This document shows positions 9,278-50,761 of a stretch of 64,000 nucleotides of DNA, in pieces. Where the stretch lies: NCBI GenBank assembly GCA_023663285.1, contig JAMPHT010000005.1, positions 29,897-93,896 of the forward strand, given 5' to 3'. Positions within the stretch are counted from its first letter, which is position 1, and each line of letters begins with the position of its first letter. The notes beneath the pieces were generated by a model. The model made no database searches. It was not told the DNA's origin and worked only from the letters and a program-made list of their open reading frames with translations. This DNA comes from Bacillota bacterium (lineage in GTDB: Bacteria > Bacillota > Clostridia > Lachnospirales > Lachnospiraceae). A program made the position numbers and the translations under genes.

Positions 9278-9403
9278 AGATTCATCAAGATGAAGAATGC
9301 CGTACTTCAGGCATTCTTCGACGTAAAGAAAGTCTGCAAAGCAGACTTAGAAGTTCTTTGCGAAACAGCCTCTGCTGTGAGCATTAGAACTTCTCTTTAC
9401 GTT
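9278..9403 (-). repeat. Modular stem-loop element, copy C, directly after rpmB
   Basis: Read on the reverse strand from the rpmB stop: ACGTAAAG, AGAAGTTCT, then a loop with GCTCACAGC-AGAG-GCTGTTTCGC, AGAACTTCT, AAG, a small TCTGC/GCAGA hairpin, and CTTTACGT closing the outer stem. Next is a second hairpin, GAAGAATGCC paired with GGCATTCTTC. Layout and core match copies A and B1, but the outer stem is a different sequence that still pairs. The first base of the element is the last base of the rpmB stop codon. Confidence 0.8.
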
Positions 9404-9587
9404 AGGCGCGTTCCACTCTGCCGGACTTCAGGCAGCTGGTACACACGTGCATTCTCTTAGCGCCGCCATTCACCTTGCACTTTACACTCTTTACGTTTGA
9501 TTTCCAGATTGCATTGCTTCTTCTATGAGAATGGCTCACATTGTTACCGAAATGAACGCCTTTTCCACATACATCACATTTAGCCAT
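9402..9587 (-). CDS. rpmB: 50S ribosomal protein L28
   Basis: The 61-residue protein is a complete L28 with four zinc-type cysteines: CDVC near the N-terminus (residues 4 and 7) and CTSC near the C-terminus, so it is the zinc-binding form. Other signatures are GNNVSHSHRRS and a basic SNVKSVKCKV. A GGAGGTGT ribosome binding site precedes the ATG. It is divergent from the Asp23-DAK2 genes, the arrangement known for rpmB, yloU and yloV in Bacillus. Confidence 0.97.
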   Translation of the reverse strand: MAKCDVCGKGVHFGNNVSHSHRRSNAIWKSNVKSVKCKVNGGAKRMHVCTSCLKSGRVERA

Positions 9588-9643
9588 TTTTACACCTCCT
9601 CGACGTTAGATTGATCCATGTCATAACTCACAGTAACATTGAT

Positions 9644-9672
9644 ATATTAACAGAAATGTCCAAGAAAAGCAA
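9644..9672 (-). promoter_or_regulatory. Promoter of rpmB
   Basis: On the reverse strand TTGCTT (9672-9667), 17 bases and TAATAT (9649-9644) lie about 57 bases upstream of the rpmB start. The forward promoter for the Asp23 gene must be in 9690-9790, where several A/T-rich candidates exist but none stands out. Confidence 0.55.
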
Positions 9673-9816
9673 GCAAAAAATACTTTTTTATTTTTTTTGC
9701 TTTTAATGTTTCCTTTTTCAGGGAAAGCTGTTAAAATACTAATATGTGTCCGTGTGCGATTTTGGTGTAACAAAAATTTTTACTCGGAAATTTATTCGGA
9801 AAGGAAAGGTTATACT

Positions 9817-10176
9817 ATGAAAGGTTCTTCTATGAATACTCATATGGGTAATATTGTCATTGACAATGATGTGATCGCCCAGTATGCCGGCAGCGTTGCG
9901 GTAGAATGCTTTGGCATTGTAGGCATGGCAGGTGTCAGTATGAGGGATGGGCTTGTTCGGCTTTTAAAGATGGACAGTTTGACCAGAGGTATCAGCGTTA
10001 CGCTTAACAATAACAAGCTGACCCTTGATTTTCATGTGATCGTGTCGTATGGCGTCAGCATACTTGCCGTTGCTGACAATCTGATCGACAGCGTAAAGTA
10101 CAAGGTTGAGGAATTTACCGGCATTGAAATCGAAAAGATCAACATATATGTTGACGGTGTCAGAGTGATTGATTAA
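9817..10176 (+). CDS. Asp23/Gls24 family envelope stress protein (YloU-like)
   Basis: The 119-residue product from ATG 9817 (after GGAAAGGAAAGG) carries the Asp23/Gls24 fold: GNIVIDNDVIAQYAG, VECFGIVGMAG and FHVIVSYGVSILAVADNL, ending EKINIYVDGVRV. It is cytoplasmic, in a family often linked to cell envelope stress. A slightly shorter start at 9832 (MNTHMGN) is possible. It precedes the FakA-like gene by 13 bases, as yloU precedes yloV in Bacillus; the function of this conserved pairing is unclear. Confidence 0.85.
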   Translation: MKGSSMNTHMGNIVIDNDVIAQYAGSVAVECFGIVGMAGVSMRDGLVRLLKMDSLTRGISVTLNNNKLTLDFHVIVSYGVSILAVADNLIDSVKYKVEEFTGIEIEKINIYVDGVRVID

Positions 10177-10189
10177 GGAGGGCTTTACC

Positions 10190-11881
10190 GTGAGTTTACA
10201 GCAAATTGACGCTGAGATGTTTTCAAAAATGTTCTTGGCTGCTGCAAAAAGCTTGGAAAATAAAAAAGAATGGATCAACGAACTGAACGTATTTCCTGTT
10301 CCGGATGGGGATACCGGTACAAATATGACAATGACGATCATGTCTGCGGCAAGGGAGGTTTCCGCCCTTGGCAGCTCTGTAAACATGGAATCTCTCTGCA
10401 AGGCGATCTCCAGCGGTTCCCTGCGGGGAGCGAGGGGAAATTCCGGCGTTATCCTGTCTCAGCTGTTCAGGGGATTTACAAAGAGGATCAAGACGGAGAG
10501 CGTCATGACCATTCCCGTACTGGCGGAGGCTTTTGACAAGGCGGTGGAGACGGCTTACAAGGCGGTCATGAAGCCCAAGGAGGGTACTATCCTCACCGTT
10601 GCAAGGGGCGGAGCCGATAAGGCAAAGGAGCTGGCGGCCGAGGGCTGTGAGGATATGGAGACCTTTCTCGGCACAGTGATCGAACACGCGAAATATGTGC
10701 TGAGCCAGACGCCGGAGATGCTTCCGGTGCTGAAGCAGGCAGGCGTAGTGGATTCCGGCGGACAGGGGCTGGTGGAGGTGCTTTCCGGTGCGTTTGACGC
10801 ATATCTGGGCAAAGAGATCGATTTGACAGTCTCGGCAGGGGAAGGTACGGGACGCGGGGCGTCTGCGGATACTAAAGGGGAGGCGGATATCAAATTCGGC
10901 TACTGCACCGAGTTTATCATCATGCTGAACAGGACCTTTAATATCAAGGCGGAGATGGATTTTAAGGCATATCTGGAATCCATCGGTGATTCGATCGTAT
11001 GTGTGACGGATGACGACGTGGTCAAGGTGCATGTACATACCAATGACCCCGGCCTGGCGATACAGAAGGCATTGAAGTATGGTGCGCTTTCCAATTTAAA
11101 GATCGACAATATGCGTCTGGAGCATCAGGAAAAGCTGTTTAAAATGTCGGAAAAGGGACAGCCGGAGGCGATAAAGGCGGCGGAGTCCACGGCGTCAGAG
11201 CCAAAGGCGGCGGAACCGCCTAAGGAATACGGTTTCATTGCCGTTTCTGCCGGAGAGGGCTTAAACGAGATCTTTAAGAGCCTTGGGGTGGATCATATCA
11301 TTGAAGGCGGGCAGACTATGAACCCCAGCACCGAGGACATTTTGAACGCAGTAGATCAGGTGAATGCAAAAACCATATTCATCCTGCCCAACAATAAGAA
11401 TATTATCCTGGCGGCGAACCAGGCGGCTGAACTGACCACGGAAAAGGATCTGCTGGTCATTCCCTCCAAGACTATTCCCCAGGGCATTACGGCAGTTATC
11501 AACTTTGTGCCGGAGCTGTCCCCGGACGAGAATGAGGAAAACATGATAAGAGAGCTTTCCAGTGTAAGCACCGGCCAGGTGACCTATGCTGTCCGGGATA
11601 CCGTGATCGACGACAAGGAAATCAAAAAGGGCGATTACATGGGCATCGGAGATAAAGGGATACTTTCCGTGGGCACTTCCATCAATGAGGTTGCAAAGGC
11701 GGCTGTGGCGGAAATGGTGACGGAGGATTCCGAGCTGATCAGCATTTATTACGGAAGTGATGTGACTGAGGAGGATGCACAGGCTTTCCGCGCTCTGGTG
11801 GAAGAGGCAAACAGCTCCTGTGATGTGGAGCTTCAGTATGGCGGGCAGCCCATTTACTATTATGTGATGTCCGTGGAATAA
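10190..11881 (+). CDS. fakA: DAK2 domain protein, fatty acid kinase catalytic subunit FakA-like
   Basis: FakA phosphorylates exogenous fatty acids held by a DegV-type FakB partner. The 563-residue protein has the nucleotide-binding DhaL/DAK2 motif FPVPDGDTGTNMTMT (residues about 31-45), GARGNSGVILSQLF near 81 and a TPEMLPVLKQAGVVDSGGQG segment near 175, then the FakA middle and C-terminal domains (ILPNNKNIILAA, GDYMGIGD). I start at GTG 10190 because AAGGAGG lies 7 bases before it; an ATG at 10169 overlapping the previous gene is less likely. A DegV gene lies at 15875, a plausible partner though not adjacent. Confidence 0.88.
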   Translation: MSLQQIDAEMFSKMFLAAAKSLENKKEWINELNVFPVPDGDTGTNMTMTIMSAAREVSALGSSVNMESLCKAISSGSLRGARGNSGVILSQLFRGFTKRIKTESVMTIPVLAEAFDKAVETAYKAVMKPKEGTILTVARGGADKAKELAAEGCEDMETFLGTVIEHAKYVLSQTPEMLPVLKQAGVVDSGGQGLVEVLSGAFDAYLGKEIDLTVSAGEGTGRGASADTKGEADIKFGYCTEFIIMLNRTFNIKAEMDFKAYLESIGDSIVCVTDDDVVKVHVHTNDPGLAIQKALKYGALSNLKIDNMRLEHQEKLFKMSEKGQPEAIKAAESTASEPKAAEPPKEYGFIAVSAGEGLNEIFKSLGVDHIIEGGQTMNPSTEDILNAVDQVNAKTIFILPNNKNIILAANQAAELTTEKDLLVIPSKTIPQGITAVINFVPELSPDENEENMIRELSSVSTGQVTYAVRDTVIDDKEIKKGDYMGIGDKGILSVGTSINEVAKAAVAEMVTEDSELISIYYGSDVTEEDAQAFRALVEEANSSCDVELQYGGQPIYYYVMSVE

Positions 11882-12014
11882 GTGTGAGAAGAATTTCTAA
11901 TCGCTCACAGCATAGGCTGTTTCGCGAAGAAATTCTAATCTCACACGGAAGAATCGCAAGGGAAGCGATTCTTCTCATTGATTGTTTGTGCCTGCTGCGC
12001 AGGCATGACGGAAG
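11882..12014 (+). repeat. Modular stem-loop element, copy A, directly after fakA
   Basis: Starting at the base after the TAA of fakA: GTGTGAGA, AGAATTTCT, inner TCGC...GCGA and ACAGC-ATAG-GCTGT, AGAAATTCT, AA, TCTCACAC (outer hairpin 11882-11946). Then GAAGAATCGC-AAGGGAA-GCGATTCTTC (perfect 10-bp stem), then TCATTGATTGTTTG, then TGCCTG-CTGCG-CAGGCA and ATGACGGAAGG. The same four modules in the same order occur at 50582-50761 on the other strand. Confidence 0.85.
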
Positions 12015-12025
12015 GTTACAAAAAG

Positions 12026-12060
12026 CACCTGTCCATTTAAGATATGATGGGCGGGTGTTT
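12026..12060 (+). terminator. Possible terminator before recG
   Basis: CACCTGTCC (12026-12034) can pair as RNA with GGGCGGGTG (12049-12057), two G-U pairs included, followed by TTTCTAT. It lies between element A and recG; the tail is weak. Confidence 0.4.
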
Positions 12061-12101
12061 CTATATTCATGACAATAGAGCTTTAGGGAGGTGCGGCCGG
12101 T

Positions 12102-14159
12102 ATGAATCAGAACACTCCTGTCATGGAATTGAAGGGCGTGGGCGAAAAGACCCGAAAGCTGTTTCAAAAGCTGAATATCGGGACGGTGGGGGAACTGCTG
12201 AAAAGCTATCCCAGGGACTATGAAGTATTCGGGGAGCCGGTGAAGATCGCCGGCACCATACCGGGGGAGGTCTGTGCCGTCTATGGGGCGGTCTCAAGTA
12301 TCCCCGGCGAAAAAAGGGTGCGGAAGCTCACTATACTGAATGTGAATATCGCCGATGAAACCGGAAATATGGGACTGACCTTTTTTAATATGCCTTTTTT
12401 AAAAAAGGTGCTGAAGCCTGGGGGCTTTTATGTGTTCCGCGGAACCGTCCAGAGCAGAGGCAGTTTGCGGCTCATGGAGCAGCCCAGAATATTTTCCCTG
12501 GAGGATTACAGAAAGCAGACCAACTGCCTGATACCGAAATATTCCCTGACAAAGGGTCTTACAGATAAGACCTTCCGCAAGACGGTAAAGCAGGCATTGT
12601 CAAATTACATCTTTGAGGAGGAATATTACCCAGAGAAGCTTTTAGCGGAGTATGAGCTTGCAGGAGAGCAGTGGGCCACGGAAACCATTCATTTCCCGCC
12701 GGACAGGGATTCTCTGGCAAAGGCAAGAAAGCGTCTGGTCTTTGACGAGTTTTTCTCCTTTCTGTTCCTGCTTCGACAGAACAAGCGCTTCAGCGATGGG
12801 CTGGAAAACCGCTATCGGATGTTTGAGACTGCAGACACGGTGCGTTTTCTGGAACAGCTGCCCTTTCCCCTGACCAGGGCGCAGAAGAAGGTGTGGCAGG
12901 AGATTCGGGACGATCTGGGTGGAAGCTATTGCATGAACCGGCTGATACAGGGGGATGTGGGCTCAGGAAAGACCATTCTGGCGGTGCTTTCCCTGTTGAT
13001 GGCGGCGGCCAACGGATACCAGGGAGCCCTTATGGCCCCCACAGAGGTCCTGGCCATGCAGCACTATGAGACGATCTGCGAATATGTGGAAAAATACGGC
13101 GTCGCTTTCCGGCCCGTTCTGCTGGTAGGCTCCATGACCGCTAAAGAAAAAAGAGAGATCTATGAAAAGATCGCTTCAGGGGAGGCCAATCTTGTCATCG
13201 GCACCCATGCCCTGATCCAGGCGAAGGTGGCGTATAAAGCCCTGGCCCTGGTGGTGACAGACGAGCAGCACCGCTTTGGGGTCCGCCAGCGGGAATCCCT
13301 TGCGGAAAAGGGGGAAAGTCCCCATATCCTTGTCATGAGCGCTACCCCCATCCCCAGGACCCTTGCCATTATTCTTTATGGGGACCTTCATATTTCCGTG
13401 ATCGATGAGCTGCCTGCAAACCGCCTGCCCATCAAAAACTGCGTGGTGAACACATCCTATCGGCCTAAGGCATATCAGTTTATTGCAGGCCAGGTGCAGG
13501 AGGGCCGTCAGGTGTACGTCATCTGTCCCCAGGTGGAGGAAGGGGAGATGGAGGATCTGGAAAATGTGGTGGATTACGCGGAAAAGCTGAAAAATATCCT
13601 GCCGCCTCAAATCAACGTTGCCTATCTGCACGGTAAAATGCGTCCGGCGGACAAAAACCGCATCATGGAGGAGTTCGGAGCCCATACCATAGATGTGCTG
13701 GTGTCCACTACGGTGATCGAGGTGGGGATCAATGTCCCCAATGCAACCGTGATGATGGTGGAGAACGCGGAGCGTTTCGGCCTTGCCCAGCTTCACCAGC
13801 TGAGAGGGCGCGTGGGCAGGGGGGAATATCAGAGCTACTGTATTTTTGTCAGCGCCCAAGAGAACAAAGATACCATGGAACGCCTTCAGATACTGAACAA
13901 GTCCAACGACGGATTCTTTATCGCCTCCGAGGATCTGAAGCTGCGGGGGCCGGGGGATATGTTCGGCATAAGACAGAGCGGCGAATTTTCCTTCCGGATG
14001 GGAGATATATACACGGACGCCGCTGTATTGAAGCAGGCGTCTGACGCCATCGACAGACTGCTTCGGACAGATCCAGAGCTGCAGCTGCCGGAGCATGAGA
14101 GACTGCGGCGGCACTTAGCGGAGGTTTCCGCAGTCAGTGTTGACTTTCGGAGCATTTAA
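12102..14159 (+). CDS. recG: ATP-dependent DNA helicase RecG
   Basis: RecG remodels stalled forks and branched DNA. The 685-residue protein has an N-terminal wedge/OB region (VGEKTRKLFQKLNIGTVGEL), Walker A GDVGSGKT (residues about 284-291), the MAPTEVLAMQH motif, DEQH (near 387) with FGVRQRE, the SATPIPRTLA motif, and the C-terminal LVSTTVIEVGINVPNA, QLHQLRGRVGRG and RGPGDMFGIRQSG motifs. All helicase motifs are intact. The start has TTTAGGGAGGTG upstream. It may be read from its own promoter, since a structured element and a hairpin separate it from fakA. Confidence 0.97.
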   Translation: MNQNTPVMELKGVGEKTRKLFQKLNIGTVGELLKSYPRDYEVFGEPVKIAGTIPGEVCAVYGAVSSIPGEKRVRKLTILNVNIADETGNMGLTFFNMPFLKKVLKPGGFYVFRGTVQSRGSLRLMEQPRIFSLEDYRKQTNCLIPKYSLTKGLTDKTFRKTVKQALSNYIFEEEYYPEKLLAEYELAGEQWATETIHFPPDRDSLAKARKRLVFDEFFSFLFLLRQNKRFSDGLENRYRMFETADTVRFLEQLPFPLTRAQKKVWQEIRDDLGGSYCMNRLIQGDVGSGKTILAVLSLLMAAANGYQGALMAPTEVLAMQHYETICEYVEKYGVAFRPVLLVGSMTAKEKREIYEKIASGEANLVIGTHALIQAKVAYKALALVVTDEQHRFGVRQRESLAEKGESPHILVMSATPIPRTLAIILYGDLHISVIDELPANRLPIKNCVVNTSYRPKAYQFIAGQVQEGRQVYVICPQVEEGEMEDLENVVDYAEKLKNILPPQINVAYLHGKMRPADKNRIMEEFGAHTIDVLVSTTVIEVGINVPNATVMMVENAERFGLAQLHQLRGRVGRGEYQSYCIFVSAQENKDTMERLQILNKSNDGFFIASEDLKLRGPGDMFGIRQSGEFSFRMGDIYTDAAVLKQASDAIDRLLRTDPELQLPEHERLRRHLAEVSAVSVDFRSI

Positions 14160-14197
14160 CGATAAAATAAGTATAATCTATTACAGGGAGTGGTCAC

Positions 14198-15772
14198 ATG
14201 GGAATTTATTCTAATCCGGGGAATGAAGGCTTCCAACGGGCAGTCCGTTCTGAAATCTATGTGGATAAAACAGGACTGATCGCTTATACAAATAAATATC
14301 TGAATACGGAGCAGCAATTTATTTGTGTCAGCAGGCCCAGGCGCTTTGGCAAATCCATGGCGCTTAATATGCTGGCCGCTTATTACAGCAGCGGCTGTGA
14401 TTCCCGGAAGCTTTTTGAAGGACTGGAAATAAGAATGAGTCCGGATTTCGAGGAGCATTTGAATCAGTATGATGTGATATTCTTAAATATGCAGCATTTT
14501 TTGATTGGTGCGAAAAATAGAGATGTAACAGATTATCTGGAACAGGAGGTTCTGGAGGAGCTTCAGGAAGAATACGGAACATTTATTACTAAGCCTGATA
14601 TCCGGCTTGCTGACGCATTGAAAAAAATTTACTCCAAAACACATAAAAAATTTGTGTTTCTGATCGACGAGTGGGACTGTGTGATGAGGGAGCGTCAGGA
14701 GTCGGAAAACCTTCAGAAGCAATATCTTGACTTTTTGAGGAATCTGCTGAAGGATCAGCCCTATGTGGCCCTTGCCTATATGACTGGCATCCTGCCGGTA
14801 AAAAAGTACGGGCAGCATTCTGCCTTGAATATGTTCTGGGAATATTCCATGATAGACCAGAGCTTCTTTGAAAAATACACCGGCTTTACGGAGGATGAAG
14901 TAGAGGCGCTGTGTAAGCGTTACGATATGGATTTCAGCGAAGCGGGCAGCTGGTATGACGGCTATCGGTTTACGGGTTTTAAGCATATTTATAATCCGAA
15001 GTCTGTGGTGGAAGCCATGCACCGCCGCCGGTTTTCCAACTACTGGACCTCTACGGAGACCTATGACGCCCTGAAAATCTATATGGATATGGATTTTGAC
15101 GGCCTGCGGGCGGACATTGTACAAATGCTGGGCGGGGAATGCGTCAGTGTCAATACGGCCAGCTTTCAGAACGATATGCGCAATTTCAGGACAAAGGATG
15201 ATGTGCTGACCTTGTTGATCCACCTTGGATATCTGGGGTATGACCCGGAGACAGGGGAAGCCTTTATCCCCAACAGGGAGATCATTGGAGAATTTGAAAA
15301 TGCCATGAGCGTAGGCGGATGGCCGGAAATCATGCGTATTCTGAAGGCTTCGGAAAAGCTGCTGGAGGATACCTTGCGCTGTGATGGGGAAAGTGTGGCA
15401 GATGGACTGGACAGGATCCATATGGAGGCCGCTTCCATTTTGACCTATAATGATGAAAACTCGTTGAGCTGTGCTATCGGCCTGGCATACTACAGCGCAA
15501 GAAGAGATTACAGGCTGATCCGGGAACTGCCCGCTGGGCGGGGCTTTGCCGACATTGTGTTCCTGCCGCTGCCTGCTTCCGGAAAGCCTGCCCTTGTGGT
15601 GGAGCTAAAATATGATAAATCCGCCGATACAGCCATTCGGCAGATCAAGGAAAGAGGTTATACCCAGGCGCTGGAGGGGTATTCAGGGGAAGTACTGTTG
15701 GTGGGAATCAGCTATGATAAAGATAATCGAAATAAACCTCATAGCTGTGTGATAGAAAAGATAAATTCGTAA
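14198..15772 (+). CDS. AAA-ATPase-like protein with C-terminal PD-(D/E)XK nuclease-like domain
   Basis: The 524-residue protein has an N-terminal AAA-ATPase-like domain with a modified P-loop (VSRPRRFGKSMALN, residues about 45-58), a Walker B-like KFVFLIDEWD near 150 and the segment AYMTGILPVKKYG. The C-terminal region carries PD-(D/E)XK-like features: GFADIVFLP then ALVVELKYDKS, where D, E and K could form the nuclease site. This architecture is common, often multicopy, in gut Clostridia and Bacteroidetes, with no settled role. A GGGAG site precedes the start. It does not sit in an obvious defence cluster. Confidence 0.8.
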   Translation: MGIYSNPGNEGFQRAVRSEIYVDKTGLIAYTNKYLNTEQQFICVSRPRRFGKSMALNMLAAYYSSGCDSRKLFEGLEIRMSPDFEEHLNQYDVIFLNMQHFLIGAKNRDVTDYLEQEVLEELQEEYGTFITKPDIRLADALKKIYSKTHKKFVFLIDEWDCVMRERQESENLQKQYLDFLRNLLKDQPYVALAYMTGILPVKKYGQHSALNMFWEYSMIDQSFFEKYTGFTEDEVEALCKRYDMDFSEAGSWYDGYRFTGFKHIYNPKSVVEAMHRRRFSNYWTSTETYDALKIYMDMDFDGLRADIVQMLGGECVSVNTASFQNDMRNFRTKDDVLTLLIHLGYLGYDPETGEAFIPNREIIGEFENAMSVGGWPEIMRILKASEKLLEDTLRCDGESVADGLDRIHMEAASILTYNDENSLSCAIGLAYYSARRDYRLIRELPAGRGFADIVFLPLPASGKPALVVELKYDKSADTAIRQIKERGYTQALEGYSGEVLLVGISYDKDNRNKPHSCVIEKINS

Positions 15773-15874
15773 AGATAAATTTGCAAAAACAGTAGTCGGG
15801 AAATACAACTTATGTTATACTTTATTACAGGATTTTGACTGCTGAGGAGAAAGCAAAAAAGCGAGGATAAACTT

Positions 15875-16744
15875 ATGTCTACTATTGCAATCGTCACCGA
15901 CAGTAACAGCGGCATTACCCAGGCTGCATCCAAGGAGCTGGGCATATATGTGTTGCCCATGCCATTTATGATCAATGATCAGACCTTTTATGAGGATATC
16001 GATCTGACCCAGGAACAGTTTTATGAGAAACTGGCCTCCGGCGCGGATATTTGCACCAGCCAGCCTTCTCCTGAGTCTGTTATGGAATTATGGGATGAGC
16101 TTTTAAAGGATCATGACGAGATCGTGCATATTCCTATGAGCAGCGGGCTTTCAGGCTCCTGCCAGAGCGCCATTATGCTTGCGGAGGATTATGAGGGGCG
16201 GGTACAGGTGGTAAACAACCAGCGGATTTCCGTGACCCAGCGCCAGTCCTGCCTGGATGCGAAGCTTCTCGCCTCGAAGGGAATGAATGCAAAGAAGATA
16301 AAGGAGGCTCTGGAGGCTGATCGGTTCAACAGCAGCATCTATATTATGCTGGATACTCTGTACTACCTGAAAAAGGGTGGCAGGATCACTCCCGCCGCGG
16401 CTGCCATCGGCACTATGCTGAAGCTGAAGCCGGTGCTGCAGATCCAGGGGGAAAAGCTGGATGCTTTCTCCAAGGCGAGAACCGTGAGCCAGGGGAAAAA
16501 TACCATGATAAACGCGGTCAGAAGCGATATGGAGAACCGTTTTGGCGGCGCTCCTGACCCCAAGAAGCACTGGATCTCCATGGCTTACACCTATAACCGC
16601 GAGGCGGGAGAGGCATTTCGCGCAGAGGTACAGGAAGCGTTTCCCGGCTTTGATATCCATATGGATCCCCTTTCCTTAAGCGTGGCCTGCCATATCGGCC
16701 CCGGCGCGCTGGCAGTGACCTGCTCGAAAAAGATAGAAGCATGA
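15875..16744 (+). CDS. DegV family fatty-acid-binding protein (FakB-like)
   Basis: DegV proteins bind a fatty acid that FakA phosphorylates. The 289-residue product has the family signatures IVTDSNSGITQAAS near the N-terminus, ICTSQPSPESVMELWDELL near residue 66, IPMSSGLSGSCQSAIMLA near 90, and YYLKKGGRITPAAAAIGTML near 170, ending HIGPGALAVTC. It is full length. The start follows GCGAGGATAAAC, a weak ribosome binding site. The FakA-type gene lies 4 kb upstream on the same strand. Confidence 0.93.
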   Translation: MSTIAIVTDSNSGITQAASKELGIYVLPMPFMINDQTFYEDIDLTQEQFYEKLASGADICTSQPSPESVMELWDELLKDHDEIVHIPMSSGLSGSCQSAIMLAEDYEGRVQVVNNQRISVTQRQSCLDAKLLASKGMNAKKIKEALEADRFNSSIYIMLDTLYYLKKGGRITPAAAAIGTMLKLKPVLQIQGEKLDAFSKARTVSQGKNTMINAVRSDMENRFGGAPDPKKHWISMAYTYNREAGEAFRAEVQEAFPGFDIHMDPLSLSVACHIGPGALAVTCSKKIEA

Positions 16745-16787
16745 GCAGTTTCATACTAATTCTTTTACCGTATCTTGTAGTTTTTCT

Positions 16788-16816
16788 TTTACAAAACACT
16801 AAATCTATGATATAAT
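16788..16816 (+). promoter_or_regulatory. Promoter with extended -10
   Basis: TTTACA (16788-16793), 17 bases and TATAAT (16811-16816) preceded by TGA form a good sigma-A promoter upstream of the NUDIX gene. A second TATGATATAATG occurs near 16886-16896, so the -10 segment is duplicated. Confidence 0.55.
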
Positions 16817-16897
16817 GAGCGTTAGCGAGAAGAATGAGCTTGCTCATTCGGCGAGCGGCGAATGGCGATCATAAATCGAAGATTTATGATATAATGA
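16801..16897 (+). repeat. Hairpin-rich segment flanked by a duplicated -10 sequence
   Basis: The sequence TATGATATAATGA occurs at about 16806 and again at about 16885. Between them lie GAATGAGC-TT-GCTCATTC (perfect 8-bp hairpin) and ATCATAAATC-GAA-GATTTATGAT (perfect 10-bp hairpin). The layout looks like a small inserted structured element that copied part of the promoter at its ends. Confidence 0.5.
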
Positions 16898-16914
16898 TTC
16901 CAGAGGAAAACAGA

Positions 16915-17478
16915 ATGAATGATAAAGTGATAACAGAGGAAGCGGCGCTCATGCTGGAGCTTCAGGACAGCGAGTGGCGTTTTGAGTACATTGACCATGA
17001 CAGGCAAATCGTGCGAGCGATCGTCTTTGACGATGCAGGTTATTTTTATTTTGTAAGGGCTGTTAGAGATGACGATTTTGGAAAAGCTGTCTTAATAGAA
17101 ACCGCAGGGGGCGGCGTGGAAAACGGAGAGGAACTGACCGCAGCTATAAAGAGAGAGCTCAGGGAAGAGCTTGGAGCAGAGGTCGATATACTTTGCAGGA
17201 TCGGAGTTGTCAGTGACTATTATAATCTCATTCACAGGCACAACATCAATCATTATTATTTGTGTAAAATATCTTCCTTTGGGGAGAAGAATTTGACGCA
17301 GGATGAAATAGAGTGCTTTCACTTATCGACCTTAAAGTTATCTTATGAAGAGGCCGTTGAAGAATACGAAAAATGTTCGATAACAAAGCTTGGAAGGCTT
17401 GTTGCAAATAGAGAATTGCCTGTTTTGCGAAGGGCGAAGGAAATCATGACTGAAATCGGCTGTTTTCCTGCCGCCTAA
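16915..17478 (+). CDS. NUDIX hydrolase, ADP-ribose-pyrophosphatase-like
   Basis: The 187-residue protein carries a Nudix box GGVENGEELTAAIKRELREE followed by LGA (residues about 70-92), preceded by KAVLIETAGG, which resembles ADP-sugar pyrophosphatases. The substrate is not certain. I start at ATG 16915 (MNDKVITEE) after AGAGGAAAAC; the open frame extends upstream through the hairpin segment, but without a convincing start. A structured element follows its stop codon directly. Confidence 0.85.
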   Translation: MNDKVITEEAALMLELQDSEWRFEYIDHDRQIVRAIVFDDAGYFYFVRAVRDDDFGKAVLIETAGGGVENGEELTAAIKRELREELGAEVDILCRIGVVSDYYNLIHRHNINHYYLCKISSFGEKNLTQDEIECFHLSTLKLSYEEAVEEYEKCSITKLGRLVANRELPVLRRAKEIMTEIGCFPAA

Positions 17479-17577
17479 GAATATCTAATCATTCCGGGAA
17501 GAATCCGTAGGCGGATTCTTCCGGCCCTGCGGCGGTTCATGGATTGTATGTGCCGCCGGAGGCGGCATGACGGGAAT
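17479..17577 (+). repeat. Modular stem-loop element, copy E, directly after the NUDIX gene
   Basis: Immediately after TAA come AGAATATCT-AA-TCATTCC (the 3' arm of the outer stem only, closely like copy B2), then GAAGAATCCG-TAGG-CGGATTCTTC (perfect 10-bp stem), TGGATTGTATG, and TGCCGCC-GGA-GGCGGCA followed by ATGACGGGAAT. The 5' half of the outer hairpin is missing, so this copy is truncated. Confidence 0.7.
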
Positions 17578-17796
17578 ATATAAAACAGGCGGCAAATGAG
17601 AATTTTACAGTAGACTGCTTCGGTCAATGCGTTTTTGCAGCTTGACTGTGTTAGTCGATGCGTAAAAAAAGCGCATATATTTCAGGGTAAGGATGATGAG
17701 TTCGGTGACCGGACTGGTCAATATCTTGCCGCTTATAAAATTGTGAAGGATCATAAATCAGTTACTTTATATCAAATTTTTAAGGAGTGTTTTCTT
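17578..17796 (+). other. Leader region before the topoisomerase B gene
   Basis: No gene is evident in this stretch. It holds TTGACT near 17642 and an ATGCG/GCGCAT hairpin near 17658-17677, with no clear matching -10. The promoter of the topoisomerase pair is probably here but I cannot place it. Confidence 0.3.
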
Positions 17797-45400: not shown

Positions 45401-45764
45401 AAATCTCCTGTTGAGCGAGCGCAGGCAGGAGGGACGGCAATGTGATGAGAAGGGGTGCTGGCTGTTTCTGGAGCTTCAGAAAAAAGAGCAGCTGTTTGCA
45501 ATGGGGCCTGCCGGACAGGGCGGCCTGAAGCTTCGGGGCAGCGCCAGATATATATCCACCGGAGAGGGGCTTCCTTTCCTGCTGTCAGATAGAGGCTACG
45601 GCATTTTGCCAGCCTCATCCGGTCCGGTGGTCAGCTGTGACATTCCGGCTTACGGGTCTTATCTCTATATGGAGGGGCAGGAACCACAGGATTATTATTT
45701 TCTGGCGGGGAAACAGCAGCAGAATATCCTGAACGCCTATAAATTCCTCTGCGGAGACCTGTAG
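42453..45764 (+). CDS. HelD-like superfamily 1 helicase fused to a repeat linker and a GH31-N-terminal-like domain
   Basis: The 1103-residue protein has three parts. Residues 1-735 are a HelD-like (UvrD-related) ATPase: an N-terminal coiled coil (EDNLENYSGEVYRMQGEI), Walker A VAGSGKTTVAMHRI near 214, Walker B VIDEAQDFGMMA near 508, and LLYVAATRALHELHIL near 711. HelD frees stalled RNA polymerase. Residues 735-885 are a low-complexity linker with ERTAKTEQVQ-type repeats. Residues 888-1103 resemble the N-terminal beta-sandwich of GH31 glycosidases: GIIRMTFARGASLQEAV, GLPFLLSDRGYGILP and EPQDYYFLAGKQQQNIL then NAYKFL, ending where the catalytic barrel would begin. ATG 42453 follows AAGGAGAT. Confidence 0.82.
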   Translation: MKNTDRKAEEKYLKDTMGVIEDNLENYSGEVYRMQGEIDEMLEHYHDNDVELWTLLNNTITLHDHMKRALERNRKASHKPYFGRIIFRDETYGTEESLYIGKGGISKDSTHRIVVDWRAPVANAYYENGLGKCSYAAPGGSEIPIDLELKRTFEIEEGRLLDFFDTEVVANDDLLMKYLSKNKEAVLGEIVATIQKEQNEIIRRSPYHNMIVQGVAGSGKTTVAMHRISYILYNYQERFKPEDFYIVGSNRILLNYITGVLPDLDVHGVRQMTMEQLFIRLLYEDWDDKRYRVRSVSGHTGAKPIVPEGTVPELNVIRGTEEWYLELEAFIRELEWNTIRRESIYLDPRQFVEGLEDGKSGVYDRRKEDEEAGLPSKEVCLVEGAAVERYIRQNPTVSIQSKINMLNERLMVKIRDEFLGKGVKYTDAEKKAIQQAYRGYYGGRQWKKSIYDLYAEFLAGQREKYGEAFEPSEGTSENFFDVYDLAALALIYKRVKETEVISEAHHIVIDEAQDFGMMAYRVLHACIKDCTYTVMGDVSQNIHFGFGLSDWEALKALLLPDPMDSFGVLRKSYRNTVEISEFATNILRHGSFSIYPVEPIIRHGNPVEVECLSPNTDMVDFAGRAAEICRHWQEQGCDTIAVVCRNNEEAEEAARQLSKHIEIMESDLEKASFGKGILVLPVEYTKGLEFDAVLILDPTRDAYPTDDGHARLLYVAATRALHELHILCRGDLTGLIADEAPERTAKTVQAPERATKTEQVQEQEQERTAKTEQVQERADRRVQAQEASGTGTGAAKSTMAAPSGTKRKAVVSVKQETASFHIKSGTASARTVSSVAPYGYGAPAASSRAAVKEADQNPGKETSGPSESTVSFGDMPATEQLRPRGHSRINLAVKWVSKQADGLYLQSQYGTLRVSPVGSGIIRMTFARGASLQEAVHPLIAVKKADGRWKYRDNGRLVELSTGEVTVQIEKASGGVQYLDAKGNLLLSERRQEGRQCDEKGCWLFLELQKKEQLFAMGPAGQGGLKLRGSARYISTGEGLPFLLSDRGYGILPASSGPVVSCDIPAYGSYLYMEGQEPQDYYFLAGKQQQNILNAYKFLCGDL

Positions 45765-45792
45765 CACATAAATTAACCGGCAGAGAGCTTAT

Positions 45793-46131
45793 CTATCTGG
45801 CAAGGGTATCCACCCATTCTTCGATTTTGTCCTCATAGTCTGCGGAAATGATCTGGTACACCTTTTCCGCAGTGAGACCTAAGAGCGAGGTACTGTTCGT
45901 ATCCAGGGCGACCACCGCCGCAAAGAGCAGGACAGCAAGCAGCACACGAAGCCGGAAAGAGGATTGGGGAGACTGCTCCCACTCAGGGTCATCCCCGTCC
46001 TCCCATGGACGTACGCTTTCCCTGCCATACAGGATCTTTTCCCGATTACCCATATCATATCTGTCCTCTTTGTAGCGGGAGCGTATCTGCTGAATCAACT
46101 GTAATTTCTGTTCCGTGGTCGCATCCTTCAT
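45793..46131 (-). CDS. Single-pass membrane protein, unknown
   Basis: The 112-residue protein has a charged cytoplasmic N-terminus (EQKLQLIQQIRSRYKEDRYD), an acidic middle (RPWEDGDDPEWEQSP), one helix (LRVLLAVLLFAAVVALDT) and a C-terminal segment (AEKVYQIISADYEDKIEEW). No family recognised. It converges on the helicase gene with a 28-base gap. Confidence 0.65.
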   Translation of the reverse strand: MKDATTEQKLQLIQQIRSRYKEDRYDMGNREKILYGRESVRPWEDGDDPEWEQSPQSSFRLRVLLAVLLFAAVVALDTNSTSLLGLTAEKVYQIISADYEDKIEEWVDTLAR

Positions 46132-46212
46132 TACTGTTCGTCCGGTTTTAATTACTTATTACAGGATATGTCCTCAACAGATAGGACAGAACCTTTTGAC
46201 GGAAAAACTTCC

Positions 46213-46497
46213 TCAGTTTTTCTTCATAGCCTTGATCAGGTTTTTCAAGGCGTCGATTTCCTCCTGTGATAAACCTGACAGATCGATTTCCTGTTTATTT
46301 TCCATACCCAGAAGAAAATCAGTGCTTACATTAAAAATCCTGGCAATATGAATCAAAACATCATAAGATGGCAGGCGGAGTCCTGTTTCATAAGCGCTTA
46401 TGACAGATTTAGTAAGTCCCAGCTTTGCAGCAAGCTGCGCCTGCGTCATTTTTTCTCCCAGCCGTTGTGTTTTTAATATGTTTCCAAAGTCAACCAT
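46213..46497 (-). CDS. XRE family transcriptional regulator
   Basis: The 94-residue DNA-binding protein has a full helix-turn-helix: NILKTQRLGEKMTQAQLAAK then LGLTKSVISAYETG, RLPSYDVLIHIARIFNVSTD and FLLGMENK. A short acidic helix (EEIDALKNLIKAMKKN) ends it. It starts after AAAGGAGATTTACTT. It is divergent from the membrane gene at 46655 and may regulate it or itself. Confidence 0.88.
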   Translation of the reverse strand: MVDFGNILKTQRLGEKMTQAQLAAKLGLTKSVISAYETGLRLPSYDVLIHIARIFNVSTDFLLGMENKQEIDLSGLSQEEIDALKNLIKAMKKN

Positions 46498-46566
46498 AAG
46501 TAAATCTCCTTTCTGCTATCATACAACATTGTCTGTATTCGATAGGTTGATTATGTCTTTATGTGG

Positions 46567-46595
46567 TTGACTTTCAAGGAATATAATAGTAATAT
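46567..46595 (+). promoter_or_regulatory. Promoter between the divergent XRE and membrane genes
   Basis: TTGACT (46567-46572), 17 bases and TAATAT (46590-46595). On the reverse strand a TTGAAA overlaps this -35, so the two promoters may compete and share an operator. The repeated GGTTGA near 46546 and 46565 is a possible XRE half-site. Confidence 0.45.
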
Positions 46596-46654
46596 ATACA
46601 TATGGAACTGAAAAAATGGTGACACAAACCTCAAAGAGAAAGGAGGCGGAAAAT

Positions 46655-47215
46655 ATGGAGAGTATCGTAACGATTGCTTTTATTGTGGTGGCCGGCATAG
46701 CCATTATATCAGCTGTAATCAAAATATCCCTGGAATTATGTTTATTATATGTTGGAGTATCGAATCAATCCCTGGGAAATGAATGTTCCCGATGCAAATG
46801 TCACCCGCTCTGGGACGCGTTCCTATCAGGGCCATTATATATGGAAAATCAAATAGGGTCATTCAGATTCTGTATCAGTCCGCTTGACAAATACAATTAT
46901 GATCCGCAAGGTTTTGGATGTCATGACAGAGTGGTCAAAAAAGAAGGAAAGCTTTATATGACAGGCTGGTGGATAGACGAAAAAAGCGGTCAGCCCTTTG
47001 GTGCGATTTATGTAGAAGCAGACGGGAAGAAATATACTGCAGAACCGCTGGAAAGACCGGATGTGGTGGCTGCATACGAACAGGACGCATATTTATGGAG
47101 CGGCTATCAGACCGAGATACCCGACGATACATTACGGGCCACTGATCATATTGTAATAACAGGAATTACAGATGAGGGAGAAAAAAGAACGTTATGTGAA
47201 TTTAAATCTAAATAG
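46655..47215 (+). CDS. Hypothetical protein with N-terminal membrane helix
   Basis: The 186-residue product starts after AAAGGAGGCGG. Its N-terminus is a helix (IVTIAFIVVAGIAIISAVI), then a cysteine cluster (ECSRCKCHPLW) and a soluble beta-rich domain (KLYMTGWWIDEKSGQPFGAI, TDHIVITGITDEGEKRTLCE). The Cys cluster could bind a metal. Codon use looks more A/T-rich than its neighbours, which hints at transfer together with the XRE gene; I did not compute this. Confidence 0.65.
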   Translation: MESIVTIAFIVVAGIAIISAVIKISLELCLLYVGVSNQSLGNECSRCKCHPLWDAFLSGPLYMENQIGSFRFCISPLDKYNYDPQGFGCHDRVVKKEGKLYMTGWWIDEKSGQPFGAIYVEADGKKYTAEPLERPDVVAAYEQDAYLWSGYQTEIPDDTLRATDHIVITGITDEGEKRTLCEFKSK

Positions 47216-47220
47216 ACAAA

Positions 47221-47299
47221 AACTTTAACGAATCATTTGGTTTAAAACTCCATAGATGTATAAAGGTTGCAGGAATCGAGTCAACTATTCGTTAAAGTT
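47221..47299. repeat. 13-bp perfect inverted repeat between convergent genes
   Basis: AACTTTAACGAAT (47221-47233) and ATTCGTTAAAGTT (47287-47299) are perfect inverse copies 53 bases apart; GACAA occurs outside both arms with a small shift. It may be a bidirectional terminator with a long loop, or the ends of a tiny non-autonomous element. No coding capacity lies inside. Confidence 0.6.
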
Positions 47300-47337
47300 G
47301 TCTTTTGCGCATAGTTGGATTTCGGCAGGACACTCTC

Positions 47338-47892
47338 TCACAGGTCATATTCCGCAAAGAAATATGCTGCCAGCTGGGCCCTGGAACTGAATGGCTCAGT
47401 TTCCAGAAGCCGGGAGACTTGGCTCTTTGTATAAAAGCCTGCGTCGATTTGCTCGTTATCGGAGGTATGATCCTCGAAAGTGCCTTCGGCTTCCACAAAG
47501 GCAATATAGGTGGTAGTGTCGGAAATTGCAACGGCGGCGAAGGAAGGCGGCAGAATTTTTTTGATGGTTTTCACACGCAGCCCAGTCTCTTCAAAAAGCT
47601 CACGGGCAATGCAGTCCTCAATGGACTCGCCTGCATCCAGCATTCCTGCGCACAGATTGTAAATGGTCTTGTTTACGCCCATGCGGAATTCGTGCAAAAG
47701 GAGCAATTTCCCCTCACAGGTTGCCACAATGGACACGCCGCTGGGCTTTCCGCCCACATCCTCGATCCCTTCCAATTCTCTGCGGCTTACGATTTCATAT
47801 TTCTTTTCACGTCCTGATTTATTTAAGTAAGTAATTTCATAGTTTTTCAGATATTTTCCATCCCGAACCTTTTCAAATTTCAAAAATTCCAT
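47338..47892 (-). CDS. NUDIX hydrolase, ADP-ribose pyrophosphatase-like
   Basis: The 184-residue protein has the Nudix box GMLDAGESIEDCIARELFEE followed by TGL (residues about 82-104), preceded by NLCAG and followed by the PSFAAVAISDTTTYIAF region typical of ADP-sugar pyrophosphatases. It would turn ADP-ribose into AMP and ribose-5-phosphate; the substrate is inferred. It is followed by an intergenic inverted repeat. Confidence 0.87.
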   Translation of the reverse strand: MEFLKFEKVRDGKYLKNYEITYLNKSGREKKYEIVSRRELEGIEDVGGKPSGVSIVATCEGKLLLLHEFRMGVNKTIYNLCAGMLDAGESIEDCIARELFEETGLRVKTIKKILPPSFAAVAISDTTTYIAFVEAEGTFEDHTSDNEQIDAGFYTKSQVSRLLETEPFSSRAQLAAYFFAEYDL

Positions 47893-47967
47893 GATAATAA
47901 TCTCCCATCATATATTTTTGACCTGCGAATATCAAGACATTCTTTCTGCCTGCACTCTCGCGGGTAA

Positions 47968-49296
47968 TTATTGAGACTGGCCATTTCCCCTGCCCAAGGC
48001 TTCCCAGAGCGGCTTCGTGATTTTCTTTCGCGTGATCTCCACCAGCCCCAGGGGCGTCATATCTACTACTGTAGTCTTTACCCTGTCCCGGCGCACATAT
48101 TTCCTCAGGCAGTCCAGCACTTCTGCCCTGCTCTCCTCTTCTTTCATATTGATGAAATCCACTATAATAATGCCGGAAAGATTGCGGAGTCTTATCTGCC
48201 TTGCCGCCTCTTCCGCCGCCTCCAGGTTCACCTTGAGGAAAGCATCCTTTTTGCCTTCGTATTTGCCGGAATTCACATCTATGACAGTGAGCGCTTCTGT
48301 AGGCTGGATCATGAGGTAACCGCCGGATCTAAGCCACACCCGCTCGCCAAGGGCGTCCTCTATTCTGCTGTCCAGGCTGTACAGCTTAGACAGAGGAAGC
48401 AGAGGATCTTCATACAGACGTAAGGCTTTTTCAGGTAAATGGACCGCTCTATATTCCGCCAGCTGCGCATACAGCACCGGATCATCAGTGAGCAGCTCGG
48501 AAAATTCGTCAACAGATACCAGGTTATTTAAGATTCCCGCCATGAAATTATCAATAGAGCCGCTTTTCTTAAGACAACTGAAGCAGGTACGGTGGACAGC
48601 GTTCCGAAAAAAGGTGAGAAATTCATCCAGAAAACGCTGAAAAACCTCATCAAGCTGCGCCGCCTCCAAATCAGCAAGTTCAGCGGCTCTGGTTCTGACG
48701 ATCAATCCAAAGGAAGGCATCCCTGTCAAATCCTGCGTCAAAATATCATCAGAGGGCCGTACAAGACATCCTCCTTCCGTTATGCCGGCATTTTTCAGCT
48801 TTTTTTCCAGGGCTTTCTTTTCCTCAGCGGCAAGCCTTACGGAAAAGCCCACTCGTGTGGCTCCAATGGCCAGGGCAAAATAATCATTTGAAAGAGAAAT
48901 ATGAGCGGTGACAGAGGGCTGCTTTGTCTTTTGCGCATCCCTGGTCACTTGTACGATCAACTCGTCTCCCTCCAGTATCCGGCCGTCAAAGGTCCGGTTC
49001 AAAAGAAAAGGAAATTCAGCTTCTTTTAAGGGAAGAAAACAGATTTCGCCAGGCTGTATTTCCACAAAACAGGCACTAATATTTTTCGCCACATTCAGAA
49101 CCTTAGCCAGATAAATCGAACCCACCCTGCTCTCTTCCGGAAAGGCAGCTACCGTCAGTTTATCCTTTTTCAGCAAAAAAACTGCGTTTTTTTTATGATA
49201 TTGGGTAAAAAGCAATTTACCCTCGTCGGTTTTTCTGTTTAAGTTTTCCTCATCTGAAATTGTCACAGCTGTTTTTTCAGGAATATTGCGGCTCAT
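47968..49296 (-). CDS. rng: Ribonuclease E/G family protein
   Basis: An endoribonuclease of RNA maturation and decay. The 442-residue protein has an N-terminal S1-like segment (VGSIYLAKVLNVAKNISACF), DDPVLYAQL, the catalytic core LTVIDVNSGKYEGKKDAF with metal-binding Asp, IIIVDFINMKEEE (second Asp) and a C-terminal VDMTPLGLVEITRKK. The tail is shorter than that of E. coli RNase E, as for RNase G. It lies downstream of the TIGR03960-TIGR03936 genes, a frequent Clostridia order, but rplU and rpmA do not follow. Confidence 0.92.
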   Translation of the reverse strand: MSRNIPEKTAVTISDEENLNRKTDEGKLLFTQYHKKNAVFLLKKDKLTVAAFPEESRVGSIYLAKVLNVAKNISACFVEIQPGEICFLPLKEAEFPFLLNRTFDGRILEGDELIVQVTRDAQKTKQPSVTAHISLSNDYFALAIGATRVGFSVRLAAEEKKALEKKLKNAGITEGGCLVRPSDDILTQDLTGMPSFGLIVRTRAAELADLEAAQLDEVFQRFLDEFLTFFRNAVHRTCFSCLKKSGSIDNFMAGILNNLVSVDEFSELLTDDPVLYAQLAEYRAVHLPEKALRLYEDPLLPLSKLYSLDSRIEDALGERVWLRSGGYLMIQPTEALTVIDVNSGKYEGKKDAFLKVNLEAAEEAARQIRLRNLSGIIIVDFINMKEEESRAEVLDCLRKYVRRDRVKTTVVDMTPLGLVEITRKKITKPLWEALGRGNGQSQ

Positions 49297-49425
49297 GGGG
49301 ATCCTCCTTCTCTTTTTCGCGCTTCCTGATATTCTGTTTAAACTTTCTTACTGCTTTTCCGGAAAAGTATTCCCACTGCTATTAGGAAACTGTATTTTGA
49401 ATTTCTTTTACTGAATATCGGGAAA

Positions 49426-49623
49426 TTATTGTTTGTTCGAGTAAACTCGATAAAGGACGCAAGCAATTTCAATAATCAAGCATACGCCCATGATATAGCC
49501 CTCCACTATGACAGCATCTGGATTCAGATGTGTTGCAAAGAAAATTTCAAATCCCATGACAATACAAGCACAAACCTGAATAATTACCGCAACAACAGCA
49601 AGCAAAAACATACTTCGTTTCAT
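49426..49623 (-). CDS. Small two-helix membrane protein
   Basis: About 65 residues: MKRSMFLLAVVAVIIQVCAC begins helix one; IMGVCLIIEIACVLYRV is helix two. I start at 49623, 6 bases after GGGGGA; an in-frame ATG at 49635 has no ribosome binding site. It lies after the truncated element D, in an operon with the radical-SAM genes and rng. Unknown function. Confidence 0.55.
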   Translation of the reverse strand: MKRSMFLLAVVAVIIQVCACIVMGFEIFFATHLNPDAVIVEGYIMGVCLIIEIACVLYRVYSNKQ

Positions 49624-49645
49624 TTCGTCCCCCATAGCTACTTAT

Positions 49646-49720
49646 TCATTCCGTTCACACTTCCAGTCATGCCGCTTCAGCGGCACAAACATTCAATGAG
49701 AAGAACGCTGTCCAATCTTC
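49646..49720 (-). repeat. Modular stem-loop element, copy D, directly after the TIGR03936 gene
   Basis: On the reverse strand, right after the TGA: a partly paired GAAGATTGGACAGCGTTCTTC, then TCATTGAATGTTTG, TGCCGCT-GA-AGCGGCA, ATGACTGGAAGTGTGAAC and GGAATGA. It lacks the long outer hairpin but otherwise repeats the second, third and tail modules of copies A and B1. Confidence 0.7.
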
Positions 49721-50473
49721 TCATACTTCTCCCAGGGATAGAAAGGCTGTCTCTCCCCCGTTAGCGCCCTTTGCAGTATGATTGGCAGCGGTGTACACAT
49801 CCTCCCTGGTGATCAGGAGGGCATTTTCCTGCAGCGTCTCACCACTCTCTGCCAGAAGCGCTTCTATTACCTGGCCCGGTTTGATATTTCCGGCGCTGGA
49901 GGCATCCAACAGCATATAAAAAGCCGTGCCGTTCCATCTCAACTCATAGATACCGGGTCTTAAATCAAGCTCCCTTGTGCCCTTTTTGGTTTCCTTTGTA
50001 TAGGGAATATTGTCTTTTGCAAGGAAAGCGGGAAGCGCCTGCGCAATATCCGTCCGGGGAGCGCGGCCCTCCCGAAAACATACGGTATAGGATGCGGCGG
50101 CCACACTTGCCATGGCGTTTCCCGCATCCTCAGGAAGAACCCTTGCGGACAGGATTTCTATACCGTAGACACTGGCCCCGTTCAGCCTGTCCACCACATC
50201 CTGAGTAGACTGCAGGGAATGCACCTCAATATCCATATATTCGCCGTTGCTTTCAATGCCGACGCCCAGGGGCGCTGCAAAAGTCATGATTTGATGAGGG
50301 CTGTAGCCTCCTGTATATGCGATGTCAAGTCCCGCTCTCCGAATGGCCTTCTGAAAGAAACGCATGACATCCAGATGCCCGATAAAGCGAACCGGACCAT
50401 ATTTTCTGAATTTGATCCTTATTTTTATATCTACACCCCCATTCCCGCAGTCTCCAGCAGCACAAACAATCAA
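49721..50473 (-). CDS. TIGR03936 family radical-SAM-associated protein
   Basis: The 250-residue protein matches the TIGR03936/DUF2344 family: KIRIKFRKYGPVRFIGHLDV, QKAIRRAGLDIAYTGGYSPH, FAAPLGVGIESNGEYMDIE. It always accompanies TIGR03960 proteins, sometimes fused to them; the pair's role is unknown. The only normal start is ATG 50473, which lies inside stem-loop element B2 and adds about 14 extra residues (IVCAAGDCGNGG) before the usual N-terminus. An ATA start closer to the conserved part, after GGGGGTG, is conceivable. Confidence 0.82.
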   Translation of the reverse strand: MIVCAAGDCGNGGVDIKIRIKFRKYGPVRFIGHLDVMRFFQKAIRRAGLDIAYTGGYSPHQIMTFAAPLGVGIESNGEYMDIEVHSLQSTQDVVDRLNGASVYGIEILSARVLPEDAGNAMASVAAASYTVCFREGRAPRTDIAQALPAFLAKDNIPYTKETKKGTRELDLRPGIYELRWNGTAFYMLLDASSAGNIKPGQVIEALLAESGETLQENALLITREDVYTAANHTAKGANGGETAFLSLGEV

Positions 50474-50588
50474 TGAACCAGTGATTTGAAAGAATCCGCA
50501 AGCGGATTCTTTCTGGAATGACTTAGATTTTCCATGCGCTTTAGCGCTATTGGCAGCGCACTTTGCTGCCTTAAAAAATCTTCATTCC
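50441..50588 (-). repeat. Modular stem-loop element, copy B2
   Basis: On the reverse strand: GGAATGA, AGATTTT, GGCAGC/GCTGCC and GCGC/GCGC inner hairpins, AAAATCT, AAG, TCATTCC (outer stem), then AAAGAATCCGC-TT-GCGGATTCTTT, then TCATTGATTGTTTGTG and CGGGAAT. None of the stem sequences equals those of B1, yet each module pairs in the same place. The 3' end runs into the start of the TIGR03936 gene. B1 and B2 together leave no room for another gene in 50474-50761. Confidence 0.75.
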
Positions 50589-50761
50589 GTTCACACTTCC
50601 AGTCATGCCTGCGCAGCAGGCACAAACCAATCCCACGGAGTCTGACGACTCCGAGAAGAACGCTGTCCTTGCGTTCTTCAGTGTGAGATTAGAATTTCTT
50701 CGCGAAACAGCCTATGCTGTGAGCGAAAATTGCCGAAGGCAATTGGAAATTCTTCTCACAC
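50582..50761 (-). repeat. Modular stem-loop element, copy B1, directly after the TIGR03960 gene
   Basis: On the reverse strand, immediately after TAA: GTGTGAGA, AGAATTTCC with an extra AATTGCC/GGCAATT hairpin, CGCTCACAGC-ATAG-GCTGTTTCGCG, AGAAATTCT, AA, TCTCACAC; then GAAGAACGC-AAGGACA-GCGTTCTTC, an extra GGAGTC/GACTCC hairpin, TTGGTTTG, TGCCTG-CTGCG-CAGGCA, ATGACTGGAAG. The core is nearly identical to copy A, 39 kb away on the other strand, with two added hairpins. Confidence 0.85.

Follow-up and report, generated by a model that had tools for sequence, protein, structure and literature searches.

ERIC and Correia elements are transcribed structured repeats that lie in operons and may change mRNA cleavage. 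The BOX element of Streptococcus pneumoniae, in the excerpted account of PMC3049150, is a high-copy intergenic stem-loop of composite build (boxA-boxB-boxC) that can be transcribed and varies in the number of its inner modules; it is over-represented between convergent genes and mirrors strand bias, with 60.8% on the leading strand. The same excerpts describe the pneumococcal SPRITE as terminator-like and enriched near gene 3' termini. REP and BIME repeats with RAYT, in the excerpts of PMC2817692 and PMC3733652, are short structured high-copy repeats outside genes that are thought to spread in trans, and prokaryotic miniature inverted-repeat transposable elements (MITEs) are non-autonomous, high in copy and nested or clustered in the portion of PMC10969869 consulted. 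Here we describe a family of stem-loop repeats found in a 64-kb stretch of Lachnospiraceae DNA (the window), which belongs to a 3.07-Mb assembly (86% complete, 90 contigs; the own genome). These are probably non-autonomous mobile repeats, situated in sense and mainly where translation of the upstream gene ends.

The repeat is dispersed through the own genome. Unit A of the window as query gave 56 matches across many contigs, and unit B2 gave 66, many of them arising from a single palindrome that matches on either strand. The first hairpin (hairpin 1) was described by two covariance models: R1 rests on 15 copies whose loop is of the CAAAGtACG type, R2 on 12 rows, one of them inexact, whose loop is of the CAGC-ATAG-GCTG or a similar type. 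Their 69 and 85 rows merge into 76 distinct copies of hairpin 1, a list that excludes antisense duplicates, weak matches and one R1 match (C3:17680-17727, E 1.2e-5) directly behind another copy.

The element is modular and about 80-200 nt in size. The outer stem of hairpin 1, stem a, is most commonly GTGTGAGA/TCTCACAC, with GTGTGCAA/TTGCACAC, GGGCGGAA/TTCCGCCC, AGGCCTGA/TCAGGCCT and others as variants. Stem b reads AGnnnnTCT/AGAnnnnCT, each arm being followed by CTA, mostly CTAA, and encloses one of two kinds of inner hairpin; 62 of the 75 arms b recognised in the 76 copies have a perfect 9-bp partner. In type II elements such as B2, GGAATGA/TCATTCC replaces stem a, behind AAGTGTGAAC. Hairpin 2 (GAAGAATnGC..GCnATTCTTC) follows hairpin 1. 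Next come optional hairpins, followed by TCATTGATTGTTTG, the TGCC..GGCA hairpin and lastly TGAC(T)GGAAG. Some copies stand in tandem or have exchanged modules, and in many the 3' module is missing or the element is cut short. The ends read (A/T/C)AGTGTGA... on the left and ...GGCATGACTGGAAG on the right, sharing AAGTGTGA in direct orientation; terminal inverted repeats were not found in these elements. Small palindromic cassettes (AAAGAGGGTGCATAGCACACCTCTTT, TTGACAATAGAATCAGCCTTTTGATTCTATTGT, CGGAGTCGTCAGACTCCG, GGCGCAAGGAAGCGCC, CGAACAAGTTCG) are nested in loops and bulges at L014, L019, L021, L029, L036, L037, L042, L049, L053 and other own-genome loci, and resemble exchangeable modules. At L007, L021, L330 and L166 the right-end AAGTnTGA serves as the 5' arm of one more small hairpin (AAGCGTGA..TCACGCTT, GTTTGAAAG..CTTTCAAAC) downstream of the 3' module.

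The fold is supported by compensatory changes. In an alignment of 15 distinct rows (A3), 95.3% of cells pair and 15 of 23 pairs have changed on both sides; in a second of 11 rows, all exact (A5), the values are 96.6% and 13 of 25, the cells in such alignments not being independent events because some rows are paralogues from a single genome. The covariation score is 0.512 for A3, with a shuffled mean of 0.144 and 0.02-0.08 for slid versions, and 0.388 for A5, with 0.135 when shuffled and 0.05-0.09 when slid; none of 500 shuffles scored as high in either case. The number of further pair types is a less decisive measure, reached by 10 (A3) and 79 (A5) of 500 shuffles. An earlier note on this DNA, made from the letters of the window, had proposed a family of structured units tied to stop codons that would be refuted if pairing were not conserved beyond shared ancestry, or if copies lay at random relative to genes. 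Neither outcome was obtained: the double changes show that pairing is conserved, and the placement described below is not random.

A copy finder based on arm symmetry returned 205 raw copies and none in block-shuffled sequence. A same-strand stop codon lies at -3 to +12 nt of the element start in 38 of 59 copies of the own genome, 16 of 28 of relatives and 49 of 106 of named contigs, the last set probably overlapping G077 and G068, with the three sets not fully independent. The mirrored sense gives none among the 193 copies, and 13 of 2300 positions drawn at random from the named contigs have such a stop. Within the 76-copy list, the 3' end of a same-strand gene is found within 12 nt in 47 copies, within 30 nt in 56 and at -100 to +70 in 63, and the mirrored orientation gives 0/76 within 30 nt and 2/76 at -100 to +70. 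Position and orientation relative to genes are thus not random, and the shared direction of unit and upstream gene that the earlier note had seen in the window extends to gene ends genome-wide, where the elements occur in sense only. Insertion governed solely by the replicating strand was rejected, as both orientations occur in the one window, each following its gene.

More specifically, the stop codon is mostly at the junction or within the element. Among 183 copies of the three sets, it lies at -3 to +3 in 63, and in 54 the reading frame upstream runs 4-140 nt into the element before it stops, which affects annotation. Copies just past a stop are rare, with eight at -4 to -30; another 20 are second units of tandems and one remains unclassed. 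This asymmetry of 63 against 8 disfavours simple tolerance, under which insertion 10 nt downstream of a stop would be expected to cost no more than insertion at the stop. The stop is most often at 0-3 (a junction TAA, TAG or TGA), at 8 (within the element's GTG TGA) or at 21 (within its TTC TAA); the element itself offers TAG at the junction, TGA at +8 and TAA at +21.

GC-rich hairpins behind stop codons could be taken for ordinary intrinsic terminators or shared gene-end signals, and at L330 alone the further hairpin behind the element is followed by a T-run. The probability of this explanation is practically negligible, since TTTT follows hairpin 1 in 0 of 193 copies, hairpin 2 in 1 of 156 and the 3' hairpin in 0 of 48, while unit C has a separate U-tailed hairpin standing 3' of it; intrinsic terminators were rejected on the lack of a U-run behind all three hairpins. 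Most copies, moreover, precede a gene on the same strand: 49 of 56 in the own genome, with four before a convergent gene and three before none. In the named contigs, 70 of 97 copies precede a same-strand and seven a convergent gene, which equals the baseline of 203 and 25 among 304 gene ends without the element. An enrichment in operons was therefore rejected, and we claim no more in this respect than that most copies precede a same-strand gene.

Orthologous gene ends without the element provide evidence of its mobility. Unit A is absent from the fakA/recG junction of the related genome G036, where TAAG is followed by TTTACC and the upstream protein segment is 92% identical. At this junction 28 of 30 fetched orthologue loci were readable (by eye, 260 nt), with the full element in the own genome only and a remnant of the 3' module directly after the stop in G074. 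B1 and B2 are both absent at the matching site in G036 and G072. In 26 of 30 orthologue pairs, 0-9 codons separate the native stop from the point of insertion, with a distance of 0 in 10. Four partners (L059, L072, L143, L282) carry an element start that the finder missed; leaving these out, the comparisons point to insertion at the native stop or up to nine codons before it in 23 of 26 pairs (9 at 0), the remaining three having offsets of -17, -4 and +54 codons.

The same placement would arise by selection instead of targeting if copies arose anywhere and were kept only where the ribosome terminates at the foot of the hairpin, the folded RNA then regulating mRNA decay, ribosome release or reinitiation. 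We regard this as rather unlikely as the main cause. In its favour, compensatory change keeps the structure across species and upstream translation mostly reaches the element. Furthermore, among 80 listed orthologue pairs, the 12 in which both gene ends are occupied come to eight distinct cases on reading of the list, and stem a or b differs in six of these, both stems being shared in two, as though the site keeps an element whose modules change. Against it, no element was found in the partner in the other 68 pairs, some having been missed because the partner scan needs a perfect 9-bp stem b; the loci were chosen for holding elements, which biases occupancy upward, and at fakA-recG occupancy is confined as described above. 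Targeting and selective retention both fit the present data, and the variable occupancy of identical gene ends allows clean natural comparisons.

Several observations weigh against mobile repeats anchored at stops. The gene ends come from our own codon-score gene calls, not from annotation; 15 of the 183 copies lie past the nearest called stop (-31 to -300) and 22 have no gene call. The 'empty' B site of G036 reads TGCTAGTGTGAAATT, which is much like an element end and could be a scar or chance, and the comparison of unit C with G036 is ambiguous. The element ends, as read from the copies, are not sharply defined. No clear target duplication was found: the left and right ends of one element resemble each other about as much as those of different elements (3.98 against 3.91; 370 of 1000 shuffles as high; 48 elements), and the empty sites are too few or too diverged to judge one. 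Finally, a mobilising enzyme was not found in a search that covered the Y1 family only.

That search bears on the idea that REP-like elements are moved here by a resident Y1 transposase of RAYT or IS200/IS605 type. Short structured direct-ended repeats at gene ends do resemble REP and BIME, the sole Y1_Tnp (PF01797) match of the own genome is a frameshifted IS200-like gene in two frames (L135/L136, C23:16323-16702), and a Y1 gene is present in G026 and G072, which have 11 and 2 R2 matches. The domain was detected in 7 of 13 genomes searched. It is, however, present in G002, G016, G028 and G031, all free of R2 matches, and was not found in the element-rich G001, G036 and G077, which have 32, 29 and 33 R2 matches and in which, at 93, 82 and 94% completeness, a gene may have been missed. 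No element copy lies within about 1.5 kb of any of nine Y1 loci, and the GTAG or CGTC tag is lacking. Membership in REP/RAYT was rejected on this distribution and these flanks, and movement by a resident Y1 enzyme is very improbable.

Another origin is suggested by two genomes, G499 and G472 (L308-L327), in which the same hairpin 1 lies inside a MITE of 254-291 bp with 16-bp terminal inverted repeats TAGGCGnTTGCGAAAC. Both ends were located in 17 of 20 fetched copies, and 14 of these 17 are flanked by exact repeats 8 bp or longer, allowing an offset of as much as 3. The near identity of copies in G499 points to a recent burst, and a search with the G499 MITE hits one phage record without annotation (MT836647.1), with 52% covered at 71.8% identity. 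The stop-codon elements might descend from a DDE-transposase inverted-repeat MITE of this kind, but we hold this to be improbable, because their ends are direct, not inverted, and the MITE is not stop-anchored: a sense stop lies within 3 nt in one of 17 copies and within 15 nt in three, and for four of the 17 the sole gene end called close by is antisense. Since a MITE with the same hairpin behaves in this way, stop anchoring seems to belong to the direct-ended element and to stem neither from the hairpin nor from intergenic tolerance as such, on a small sample and crude gene calls.

Direct reading of the window located all six units described in the earlier note (Table 1).

Table 1. Positions of the stem-loop units in the window and of the modules of unit A
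Feature	Position	Strand	Description
Unit A	11880..12014	+	complete type I element, between fakA-like (DAK2) gene and recG
A hairpin 1	11882..11946	+	stem a GTGTGAGA/TCTCACAC, stem b AGAATTTCT/AGAAATTCT, inner hairpin CAGC-ATAG-GCTG
A hairpin 2	11947..11975	+	GAAGAATCGC..GCGATTCTTC
A 3' module	11989..12014	+	TGCC..GGCA hairpin, then tail TGACGGAAG
Unit B1	50599..50763	-	complete type I, stop of radical SAM gene; extra CGGAGTC..GACTCCG hairpin
Unit B2	50441..50598	-	type II, tandem behind B1; divergent 3' end without GGCATGAC
Unit C	9292..9404 (TAA included)	-	stop of ribosomal protein L28 gene; hairpin 1 and hairpin 2
Unit D	49647..49728	-	internally deleted type I, end of DUF2344 gene; then first bases of type II element
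Unit E	17470..17577	+	type II without 5' half of hairpin 1, end of NUDIX gene

The module order that the earlier note took to be fixed (hairpin 1, hairpin 2, spacer, TGCC..GGCA hairpin, ATGAC(T)GG) is borne out by A and B1. The other units depart from it: B2, which does stand in tandem as claimed, has the outer hairpin GGAATGA...TCATTCC, unlike B1, and a divergent 3' end; C consists of hairpins 1 and 2 only, with an additional hairpin in the bulge of hairpin 1; in D an internal deletion has joined AAGTATGAGAAGA with the latter half of hairpin 2; and E has half the outer hairpin. Similarly, units do start near stops, as in A, whose start is the last two bases of the upstream TAA (11879-11881), but the stop is often inside the element and not right before it: the TGA of the DUF2344 gene (49721-49723) falls within the first 8 nt of D, and the TAA of the NUDIX gene (17476-17478) is E's own internal CCTAAG. 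The core 17-mer occurs three times in the window at 0-1 mismatch and four times at up to 3 mismatches, for which shuffles give 0.16 and none of 100 reaches four. Matches to the spacer TTGATTGTTTGTGCC by itself do not exceed chance (5 at 3 mismatches, 2.2 expected, 7 of 100 shuffles). The predicted RNA folds of 11882-12015, 50590-50761 and 17479-17577 are each better than 200 of 200 shuffles (z -8.0, -6.4 and -4.0). The longest DUF2344 reading frame begins at a TTG inside B2 (50441-50473, minus strand), and B2 may now provide the start of this downstream gene.

Among the genomes of the genus, 50 of 101 including the own genome have R2 matches at E<=1e-4, from 0 to 47 per genome (own 41, G068 47, G491 46, G484 39) where at most 50 candidates per genome were scored under stricter filters. 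A BLAST search with element A had matches in 11 of 61 genomes, each belonging to the same genus, and none in the 24 from other families. Of 391 genomes in the class, six had an R1 match, five from the family of the window and one (G396) from another; the two good copies in G396 (L293, L300) reflect either horizontal transfer or a mis-binned contig. More distant hairpins at L295 (G263) and L296 (G110) keep CTAAG-stem-AAAGnAC-like loop-stem-CTAAG with other outer stems and may represent a sister family. A pattern scan of 84,980 species genomes, which gives a lower bound and bears on presence only, returned at least 115 stretches; among the 80 matches listed, 70 are titled Lachnospiraceae or genera of that family, and the titles of the other 10 read only 'bacterium', 'Clostridia' or 'Clostridiaceae'. 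Kineothrix alysoides and Parablautia intestinalis are among the titles of the scan. An origin from phages or plasmids was rejected, element A having no match in either and the pattern no exact match in IMG/VR, the phage match of the G499 MITE noted above notwithstanding.

Taken as mobile repeats at gene ends, the elements would be copied by an enzyme acting in trans and could land at a gene end harmlessly because each brings its own stop codon. There, the element would be transcribed as a structured 3' untranslated region or an intercistronic spacer, its foot would lie under the terminating ribosome and folding would follow ribosome release, and the folded RNA probably alters mRNA stability or coupling to the next gene. 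Only tentatively do we go further and propose a class of mobile DNA in which insertion, or else retention, is tied to the termination of translation, landing in sense at stops, carrying its own stops in more than one frame and installing a ready-made structured 3' untranslated region. A stop-anchored sense repeat in dozens of copies per genome would represent either a new way of choosing harmless sites or a termination-linked RNA function in a major gut family.

The novelty claimed in the earlier note stands as far as Rfam 15 and the open-licence literature reach. Rfam gave no match above its gathering threshold in the window and none to the element; six element loci searched at E<=1 gave two weak mir-4041 matches (L033:2604-2653) outside the element. 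No description of a stop-anchored repeat family of this kind was found in open-licence papers, nor, as far as these sources go, of any known bacterial repeat with this landing habit, at the stop codon and in the direction of the gene. BOX, compared by its description, shares the composite stem-loop build and is set apart in placement, as the present elements lie at gene ends in sense only and start at the stop codon; 4 of 53 classed own-genome copies precede a convergent gene, against 25 of 228 element-free ends in the named contigs, unlike the convergent enrichment of BOX. SPRITE shares the position near gene 3' termini and differs by its terminator-like nature, the elements here having no T-runs. 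ERIC and Correia, likewise compared by description, are dispersed structured repeats for which the excerpted PMC3049150 account gives no stop-codon anchoring. BIMEs alternate in orientation in the excerpts of PMC2817692 and PMC3733652, whereas neighbouring copies within 600 nt are here on the same strand in five cases and on opposite strands in none, in multi-hairpin units of 80-200 nt without the tag of REP. MITEs, too, differ by their inverted ends, with the G499/G472 element that bears the same hairpin as the exception. As a whole, the element resembles BOX, REP and ERIC as a dispersed structured repeat, fails the features of REP (tag, RAYT) and of MITEs (inverted ends) that were tested, and combines direct ends with a sense position at the stop codon.

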